NCBI GenBank assembly: GCA_958296125.1
Contig: OY282444.1
Coordinates: forward strand, 2,165,940-2,229,939
Origin: an uncultured Poribacteria bacterium
GTDB lineage: Bacteria > Poribacteria > WGA-4E > PCPOR2b
Direction: 5' to 3'
DNA length: 64,000 nucleotides
Part shown: positions 42,098 through 44,465 of the stretch, piece by piece
How positions within the stretch are numbered: position 1 is the first letter of the stretch
Layout: the number at the start of each line of letters is the position of its first letter
Made by a program: the position numbers and the translations under genes
The notes under the pieces: generated by a model
The model's database searches: none
Told to the model about the DNA's origin: nothing
The model's input: the letters and a program-made list of their open reading frames with translations, nothing else

Positions 42098-43942
42098 ATG
42101 AGAATGCTCTGTGTTTTTACTGCCGTAACCCTAATCTTGCTGACCTGCATCATGGTACCGAGTCGCAGCGGCAAAGCAATGGCAGCGACTTCCGATATCG
42201 CTCCCGATAGCGTCTTGAATGTCATCCCCCAAGACACTGTTGGGGTGATTTACATGCCAAGCTTACTTGGCCTCAATGACGAAATTAATACACTCCTTTC
42301 AGAAATGATTCCTTCAGACCCACCGCAAGAACTGCCCGCTAAGGTGTTGGCGAACGCTTTTGGTGCGGGTTTTGAGACGCTGGCGGAATTGGAAGAACTG
42401 GGTTTGGACCTGCGGAAAAACTTTGCGGTGTTTCTCTCCGGTGTGAATCCACCGATGCTCTCCGCTGCTGTTCACGTTAAAGATGCACAAAGCGTTAAAC
42501 AGCTAATCGAAATGGAAGCGGAAGGCAGTAGTTCAGTTACCCATAACGGTGTGACATATTACACCACAGGTGAGGAAGGGGCGTTCGTTCTGATGGACGA
42601 TGTGATGGTCTATTCGGGTTCAGCGGAGATCTGCGAAAAAGTCATTGATACCCAGAAGAAGGCGATGCCATCGATTGCCGCCAATACCGATTTTCAATCG
42701 CTCAGGCTCGATACGACATCTGGCGTAAATGATCTGGTTGTTTACTTTGCAATGGATTCTATTGTGCAAGCCCTCCGTCCCTTGCTGACTGAAAAAGCGG
42801 AAGGGTTAAAAGCGGAAATGGAGGCAAGTGCAGAAGTGGATCCAGAACTCAACGTCGGTTTAGGGTCTGCCAAGCATCTGATTGACAGCGGTATACGGCT
42901 GCTGGATCAGTCAAAAACCTTGAGCCTTACTGTGCAACTCAACGGCAGCGACCTGCAGATTTCTCCATTCCTCAAATTTAAGCGGGATAGCGAAATCCAA
43001 ACCTATTTTCGCCAAATGCCGAGAGAACTGACACACCTCAAATACCTGCCTCCAAATGCGTTTCTCAACGGCGAAATGCAATTTCAGAAGGAGATGTTCA
43101 TTGGTTTGACACACACAATGATGAAGTTATTTATCCCTTCGGATCCGAACGCAGATACAGAGGAGGTCGAAAAAACCTTCGAGGCACTTACTGAAGCCAC
43201 GACAAATTTCTACGAAGGTTTGGGAAATGAGGTCGCTGTTTCCGTCAATTTCAGCGGAAGCCTGATGCCCGACTTATTATACATCTACGATGTGACGGAC
43301 GAAAAGCAGGTTAAAGCGTCCATGGAGAAAGATTTCATCTCATATTTGGGAACCTCGATGGCATTGGTTGAAGCGATGGGAGCGGGTCAGGAATTCATTG
43401 ACATGTACGCGGATGTCTCAGCAGGCCGCCCTGAGATATACAATGGCGTGGTGATTAAAAATTATATTCTGCCAAATATCACCGATCTTTTCGCTGGACT
43501 TCCGTCCGGAATGGAAGGCTTTGCTCCAGAACAGTGGAATATCTACTATGTCATCAATGGTGGCAAACTGCTCTACGGAATGGCGGCTAATGCCCGGCCG
43601 GTCAAAGATGCCCTGGATCGAATGGCGGGGACGGGGGTAGGCTTTGATCGCGGGGTAGGTTACGCCAAACTGACCGGTGCCTTGACTCTAAAAAACAACA
43701 TGCTCTTTGCTATTTCACCCATCACAGCGGTCAAGAGTCTCGTACAGACTTTTGCTCAAATGGATCCGAACGTCGGCATGATCCAGATGCTTTTGGTGAA
43801 CATTCCCGAAACTTATGGCATCGGTATTGCCAGCCAAAATCGGGATGATGGGGTTGCAGGGGAGCTATTTGTCTCACTCAGTGATTTCAAGGAAATCATC
43901 ACTATGCTCATCGGTTGGCAGCAAATGGAGGCAATGCAGTGA
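42098..43942 (+). CDS. Exported hypothetical protein (DUF3352-like), 614 aa
   Basis: A signal peptide is clear: MRMLCVFTAVTLILLTCIMV with probable cleavage after AMA near residue 30. The mature protein begins with a repeated theme of the type VIPQDTVGVIYMPSLLGLND, FAVFLSG and VHVKDAQSVKQLIE, resembling DUF3352 proteins that read like substrate-bound or adhesin-like periplasmic proteins. No catalytic motif is visible and no C-terminal anchor. AAAGGAG precedes the ATG. It is convergent to the selenoprotein candidate, with a long hairpin between them. Confidence 0.7.
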   Translation: MRMLCVFTAVTLILLTCIMVPSRSGKAMAATSDIAPDSVLNVIPQDTVGVIYMPSLLGLNDEINTLLSEMIPSDPPQELPAKVLANAFGAGFETLAELEELGLDLRKNFAVFLSGVNPPMLSAAVHVKDAQSVKQLIEMEAEGSSSVTHNGVTYYTTGEEGAFVLMDDVMVYSGSAEICEKVIDTQKKAMPSIAANTDFQSLRLDTTSGVNDLVVYFAMDSIVQALRPLLTEKAEGLKAEMEASAEVDPELNVGLGSAKHLIDSGIRLLDQSKTLSLTVQLNGSDLQISPFLKFKRDSEIQTYFRQMPRELTHLKYLPPNAFLNGEMQFQKEMFIGLTHTMMKLFIPSDPNADTEEVEKTFEALTEATTNFYEGLGNEVAVSVNFSGSLMPDLLYIYDVTDEKQVKASMEKDFISYLGTSMALVEAMGAGQEFIDMYADVSAGRPEIYNGVVIKNYILPNITDLFAGLPSGMEGFAPEQWNIYYVINGGKLLYGMAANARPVKDALDRMAGTGVGFDRGVGYAKLTGALTLKNNMLFAISPITAVKSLVQTFAQMDPNVGMIQMLLVNIPETYGIGIASQNRDDGVAGELFVSLSDFKEIITMLIGWQQMEAMQ

Positions 43943-44040: not shown

Positions 44041-44424
44041 CTAATTTGTTGCGGTTTCTGCGCTGAAACCCGCCTTTTCGACAGCATCTGCCAGTTGGAG
44101 GGCGGTGGCTTTGCCTTTTTCCAGCTTAACGATGGCTTTACCATCGGCTTGAAGAACATCGGCACTAATCACGCCAGGAATGTTTGTAAGTGCGGTCCGC
44201 ACTTTGGCTACACAGCCACCTCACGTCATCCCATCAACGCTTAACGTGATTTGCTCGTGAGCCGCCGGAGCTGCTTCAGACATATCCGTGCTTGCAGTGG
44301 TATCGGCTTCTGTGGTTGCAGGTTGCGCCGTCTCAGCTGCCTTTTCCATCTTCTTCTCTGAAGCACAGCCAATAGCAAGCAGCATTGCGATGCAGCAGAT
44401 TAGTGTGAGTTTTAGTATACGCAT
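44041..44424 (-). CDS. Probable selenoprotein: lipoprotein with heavy-metal-associated (MerP/CopZ-like) domain, TGA read as Sec
   Basis: The frame from ATG 44424 (SD AAAGGAGGT, 9 nt away) to TAG at 44043-44041 gives 127 residues if the in-frame TGA at codon 68 (44223-44221) is read through. The N-terminus is a lipoprotein signal with lipobox LAIGC (Cys20). A Thr/Ala/Glu-rich linker follows, then an HMA domain from residue 58: SVDGMT-Sec-GGCVAKV, then IPGVISADV and ATALQLADAVEKAGF. HMA domains carry GMTCxxC; here the first Cys is TGA, giving UxxC. Similarity to the family continues unbroken after the TGA, and a hairpin with SECIS geometry follows. The alternative, a simple nonsense mutation, is possible but explains neither the exact Cys position nor the hairpin. 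Likely role: metal or redox binding at the cell surface. Confidence 0.75.
44188..44204 (-). promoter_or_regulatory. Candidate bacterial SECIS hairpin
   Basis: On the minus strand, AAGTGCG-GAC-CGCACTT is a perfect 7-bp stem with a 3-nt loop starting with G. The loop begins 23 nt after the TGA, within the 16-37 nt window known for bacterial SECIS elements. A small GGCT-GTGT-AGCC hairpin (44217-44206) lies between them. Confidence 0.65.
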
Positions 44425-44465
44425 TTGGATTACACCTCCTTTCAGGATTACAATCGAGTGCCCAT

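Follow-up and report, generated by a model that had tools for sequence, protein, structure and literature searches.

We identified a gene of an uncultured Poribacteria bacterium that very likely encodes a selenoprotein (probability approximately 0.93), a predicted lipoprotein in which selenocysteine (Sec) occupies the position of the first cysteine in the metal-binding motif of an HMA domain. This reading was inferred from sequence alone, without protein data. The window, that is, the whole stretch of DNA analysed, comprises 64,000 nucleotides. The gene resides on its minus strand (44041–44424) and runs from an ATG at position 44424 to a TAG at 44043–44041, with a Shine-Dalgarno-like AGGAGG (44435–44440, minus strand) located 10 nt upstream of the start codon. 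It encodes 127 amino acids when its single in-frame TGA, codon 68, is read as Sec (Sec68), an assignment based on the sequence, its relatives, and dN/dS values. The criteria for a bacterial selenoprotein were met, because the in-frame UGA aligns with a Cys of homologues, the bSECIS model is fulfilled, and selA, selB, selC, and selD are all present. The selenium in the protein is nevertheless inferred.

The predicted protein reads MRILKLTLICCIAMLLAIGC-...-LSVDGMT-U-GGC... and has a linker of low complexity between a signal peptide with lipobox and an HMA domain. The signal peptide and the lipobox L-A-I-G-C20 are encoded at 44365–44424 (minus strand), with a predicted signal peptidase II cut before Cys20. 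The lipobox (LAIGC, residues 16–20) was called by eye from the translation and from its conservation in relatives, without a predictor. With a signal peptide, a lipobox, and a Cys at position +1, all conserved in relatives, the criterion for a lipoprotein was met. The HMA domain (residues 60–120; 44065–44247, minus strand) has a predicted beta-alpha-beta-beta-alpha-beta topology. With the TGA read as Cys, it scored 47.9 bits against Pfam PF00403 (gathering cut-off 24.8). AlphaFold2 modelled the domain with a pLDDT of about 96–98, and the top fold match was MerP (1osd, TMt 0.93). By score and modelled fold, the protein thus qualifies as an HMA-domain protein. The TGA (44221–44223, minus strand), which is kept in relatives, lies in the frame V-D-G-M-T-(TGA)-G-G-C. 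It therefore occupies the first-Cys position of the HMA motif GMTCxxC and provides the first residue of a UxxC metal site, the second being Cys71.

Downstream of the TGA we found a perfect 7-bp hairpin with a G-first loop, AAGUGCG-GAC-CGCACUU (44188–44204, minus strand), supported by sequence, folding, and covariation. The stem begins 16 nt and the loop 23 nt past the TGA. The published bSECIS model comprises a loop of 3–9 nt, a stem of 4–16 bp, a spacing of 16–37 nt, and an MFE ≤ −7.5, and it also demands a G within the first two loop positions (PMC13188914). The window hairpin meets this model with a 3-nt loop, 7 bp, G in first place, 23 nt, and a local MFE of −8.2 kcal/mol, and equally good folds occurred in 4 of 200 shuffles. 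Folded as a single sequence, the whole 46 nt were only weakly unusual (z −1.36), and the minimum-energy folds of many relatives prefer a different pairing. The case for the hairpin therefore rests on comparison, not on energy. Its loop GAC is the sole exception among 118 UxxC sequences, the others showing GG or GU as is usual for bSECIS elements; Sec insertion is thus possibly less efficient in the species of the window. An Rfam search of the window revealed one tRNA and nothing else. An earlier note, made from the DNA letters only, had placed the TGA at the first Cys of GMTCxxC without stating the strand, and had described the downstream HMA sequence as intact and the other stops in the window as normal. 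All three claims held; TGA terminates 16 of the 36 long open reading frames in the window. The same note had put the hairpin 23 nt after the TGA, which is correct for the loop, not for the stem.

Conservation of the hairpin alone would be weak evidence, because the hairpin overlaps the codons of a conserved peptide, KV[QR]xAL. We therefore compared Sec with Cys domains. The 5-bp core of the hairpin was fully paired in 119 of 128 distinct TGA-HMA sequences versus 1 of 12 Cys-HMA sequences of the phylum (Fisher p 3e-10, with kinship ignored). The other nine Sec sequences had lost one pair and retained four of the five; the A-A cases among them have a 5-nt loop with G in second position. A loop G was present in all 128. 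Among the 118 UxxC sequences, 117 encode the Val with GTG and all 118 have A as the third base of the Ala codon, compared with a background use in the window of 29% for GTG and 27% for GCA. Compensatory changes from G-C to A-U, affecting both sides, were observed at two core pairs, and 89.8% of cells pair, a value that fell to 15–48% if the strands were slid by 1–3 columns. In tandem HMA arrays, the Sec domains use GTGCAG-GAT-GCA, whereas in Cys domains with the identical peptide KVQDAL either GTG is replaced by GTT or GTA, or GAT by GAC, and every one of these changes costs the hairpin a pair. We thus rejected the possibility that the hairpin is a by-product of the KVQ-x-AL peptide, since Cys domains with the same peptide break it by synonymous codons. 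Within the phylum, Cys forms are limited to different proteins or different domains, most of which lack the hairpin.

The genome containing the window is a single 5.16-Mb contig (98.85% complete) and carries the full Sec machinery. The genes selA (C1:50138–51235, 529 bits), selB (C1:48137–50029, 370 bits), and selC (C1:47917–48006, 76.6 bits) are contiguous at C1:47917–51235, and selC was called tRNA-Sec with anticodon TCA by ARAGORN. A selD gene (370 bits) carries an in-frame TGA itself, in the Sec motif TCGUAAK, and this TGA is also followed by a hairpin, with G as the second loop base. Across 85 Poribacteria genomes, selB exceeded the cut-off in 76. Seven of the nine genomes without selB are just 61–83% complete, and the remaining two (76% and 95% complete) represent family f5, which possesses neither selB nor any match to the protein, not even in the 95% complete genome. 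Against this pattern, several genomes with the TGA gene lack a selB match above the cut-off, but these are only 73–83% complete.

The Sec-HMA lipoprotein, as inferred from sequence, is conserved across one order of Poribacteria; no restriction to this phylum is implied. Matches to the protein were detected in 82 of the 85 genomes. Every full-length lipoprotein match contains exactly one TGA, and no Cys in place of the TGA was found among the listed lipoprotein matches of the phylum. The closest relatives belong to Candidatus Poribacteria, and all five (79–87% identical) keep both the TGA at this codon and the hairpin. The residues of the GMTCxxC metal loop are conserved in relatives as well. 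As the same TGA, motif, and hairpin recur in 128 distinct relatives, the combination is more than chance, although species counts are not independent events. Among six congeneric species, dN/dS 3' of the TGA was 0.12–0.50, similar to that of the part 5' of the TGA, indicating that the downstream region is under purifying selection. Stops are present in both other frames. The earlier note would have been refuted by the absence of the sel genes, or by close relatives with TGC or TGT and no conserved hairpin; neither was observed.

Several variants of the lipoprotein were encountered. Family f4 contains tandem lipoprotein paralogues. Three Sec-HMA lipoproteins of family f3 (L146, L147, and L175) show a U-x-x-x-C spacing, U-G-I/V-S-C, with one extra residue, and their hairpin is located 3 nt further from the TGA. 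One TGA-HMA sequence (L192 555–776, G012:C129) has a second in-frame stop inside the hairpin, TAG where relatives have CAG, which may reflect a pseudogene, a sequencing error, or something else. A further family of predicted lipoproteins of ~100 amino acids carries GMDUGGC or GLDUGGC with the same type of hairpin (L204–L212, in G050, G058, G069, and G072), with several copies per genome.

Sec-HMA domains also occur in larger proteins of the phylum. An exported protein found in several genomes (L149–L157) joins a cytochrome domain of the Planctomycete type (PSCyt1) to WD40 repeats and ends in an HMA domain. At one and the same position of this protein, family f4 has TGA, whereas family f1 has TGC or TGT; the Sec and Cys forms are orthologous, sharing 61% identity across 497 residues. 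In the Cys forms, the 5' arm GTGCA of the hairpin is retained, but a matching 3' arm and a G-first loop do not occur together; the retained arm may be a remnant of a SECIS that has been lost. Tandem HMA arrays in one reading frame were observed in five f4 genomes: G027 (L148/L200), G028 (L199), G076 (L201), G071 (L202), and G047 (L203). They consist of three Sec and one Cys domain in G027, G047, and G071, of three Sec and two Cys domains in G028, and of four Sec and one Cys domain in G076. Every TGA in the arrays has its own downstream hairpin, and one or two CxxC domains close each array. The assemblies of G027 and G028 comprise four and two contigs, respectively. The four-Sec array is unconfirmed, as it stems from an assembly of 100 contigs and contains two almost identical domains. 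For comparison, a 2026 catalogue lists 2–3 Sec in a small subset of multi-Sec prokaryotic families (PMC13188914).

Sec in HMA/MerP-type domains is already known from NCBIfam models and from the GOS survey. The metal-binding (seleno)protein model UxxU_metal_bind (NF041115) likewise describes a small domain of HMA type whose metal motif contains Sec, and the window protein aligned over nearly the whole model, but with 58.6 bits it stayed below the curated cut-off of 95. The catalogued motif of that family is UxxU with two Sec (PMC13188914), whereas the window protein has UxxC and is a predicted lipoprotein. The MerT/CopZ fusion-like heavy metal transport selenoprotein (NF045683) also contains a CopZ/MerP-like domain; here, the window protein scored 26.8 bits (cut-off 375) and lacks the MerT membrane part. 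It reached 61 bits for the CopZ metallochaperone (NF047957, curated cut-off 85) and 51.9 bits for MerP (TIGR02052, cut-off 92.55). MerP (PDB 1osd/1afi) shares the HMA fold, the GMTCxxC site, and the extracytoplasmic location predicted for the window protein. Unlike MerP, the latter has Sec for the first Cys, an inferred lipid anchor, and no surrounding mer operon. Thus, the proposal of a Sec version of a MerP/CopZ-like metal-binding lipoprotein is supported, with the reservation that metal binding is inferred from the fold and the curated MerP and CopZ cut-offs were not met. The GOS survey predicted a MerP selenoprotein in marine metagenomes (two sequences, no Cys homologues; PMC2398784). It resembles the window protein as a MerP-type protein with predicted Sec, but it is a table entry only, and family identity is not established. 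The cation-transporting ATPase E1-E2 selenoprotein is a catalogued case of UxxC in a metal-transport protein (PMC13188914). It is a membrane ATPase, unlike the lipoprotein, and the P-type ATPase of the window's genome keeps CxxC in its HMA domain; the lipoprotein and this P-type ATPase are the only HMA matches in that genome. In the same genome, a search for MerT gave no match, as was the case for the control genomes. All MerA matches stayed below the cut-off. A plasmid search revealed only HMA relatives of <60% identity, none spanning most of the lipoprotein. In the literature searched, nothing paired "selenoprotein" with "Poribacteria", and the text of the 2026 catalogue mentions neither HMA, MerP, Poribacteria, nor lipoprotein (PMC13188914). 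The lipoprotein, its spread, the PSCyt1-WD40 fusion, and the arrays were not found in the literature searched.

The recoding signals, the Sec machinery, the conservation, the read-through coding, and the HMA fold are shown at the level of sequence. Lipidation, the extracytoplasmic role, metal binding, and the advantage of Sec are inferences made without metal data. In the mechanism we propose, SelB would act on the hairpin just downstream of the UGA at codon 68 and recode it as Sec. The exported protein would be lipid-anchored via Cys20 outside the cytoplasm. A flexible linker of ~35 residues would then be followed by the C-terminal HMA domain, presenting Sec68-x-x-Cys71 where MerP and CopZ carry Cys-x-x-Cys. 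This UxxC site would capture soft metals outside the cytoplasm, such as Hg(II), organomercury, Cu(I), or Ag(I), and Sec may provide tighter binding or keep the site reduced. Because selenolates exceed thiolates in softness and acidity, soft-metal capture is the most likely function. The metal cannot be named from the present data. Comparison of the relatives' neighbourhoods revealed no conserved metal operon around the lipoprotein gene; none of its neighbours is a metal gene and its surroundings differ between genomes, so that the domain is the only support for a metal role. A gene at 42098–43942 (plus strand) encodes a 614-residue exported protein without Pfam match and adjoins the lipoprotein gene in the genus and in L033.

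The main rival is a selenoprotein whose UxxC is redox-active, as a selenenylsulfide/dithiol switch or a reductase, rather than a metal ligand. In its favour, the majority of catalogued selenoproteins have redox functions (PMC9312934), MerP-type sites form extracytoplasmic disulfides (1osd is oxidised MerP), and the fusion to the predicted cytochrome-like PSCyt1-WD40 suggests an electron-transfer setting. However, the domain is a plain HMA domain by sequence and fold, not a thioredoxin fold, and its metal-loop residues are conserved. We therefore regard the redox reading as unlikely and a role as metal ligand, although deduced from the domain only, as the likely one.

The remaining alternatives deny Sec altogether, and both are all but excluded. 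The TGA might be a real stop, yielding a 67-residue product, or mark a decayed gene, as would fit its ordinary use as a stop elsewhere and the extra in-frame TAG in G012. Against this stand the retention of the TGA across an entire order, the purifying selection downstream, the stops in the other two frames, the co-conserved hairpin, and the presence of a complete Sec system. A pseudogene or truncated product was rejected on the basis of downstream dN/dS and conservation. Alternatively, TGA could be read as Trp, Gly, or Cys through reassignment or a suppressor tRNA, which an in-frame TGA alone would permit. However, TGA closes 16 of 36 long open reading frames in the window, so that genome-wide reassignment was rejected; moreover, the in-frame TGA is restricted to the Sec position, coupled to a hairpin mostly missing from Cys domains, and replaced by Cys in orthologues.

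A bolder version of the selenoprotein reading, which we consider as likely to fail as to hold, is that Poribacteria own a whole Sec-based set for extracytoplasmic metal handling built on the HMA domain, with Sec serving mainly as metal ligand. The set would comprise the single-Sec lipoproteins (often tandem paralogues), the PSCyt1-WD40 Sec-HMA proteins, and the arrays with 3–4 Sec, each UGA with its SECIS. In that case, the arrays would act as sponges for soft metals, and their maximum of four Sec in one polypeptide would exceed the 2–3 of the catalogue (PMC13188914). As ordinary gene callers would stop at the TGA, these genes are probably truncated in public annotation, which we infer without having viewed the annotations. 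Sec is usually explained by redox catalysis, and here an order-wide family has Sec replacing a metal-binding Cys. The natural Sec/Cys swaps, between orthologues and within single proteins, would allow a direct test of why a cell should bear the cost of Sec for binding a metal, and the multi-Sec arrays represent a natural test of ribosome passage over several UGA codons per mRNA, each with its own SECIS.
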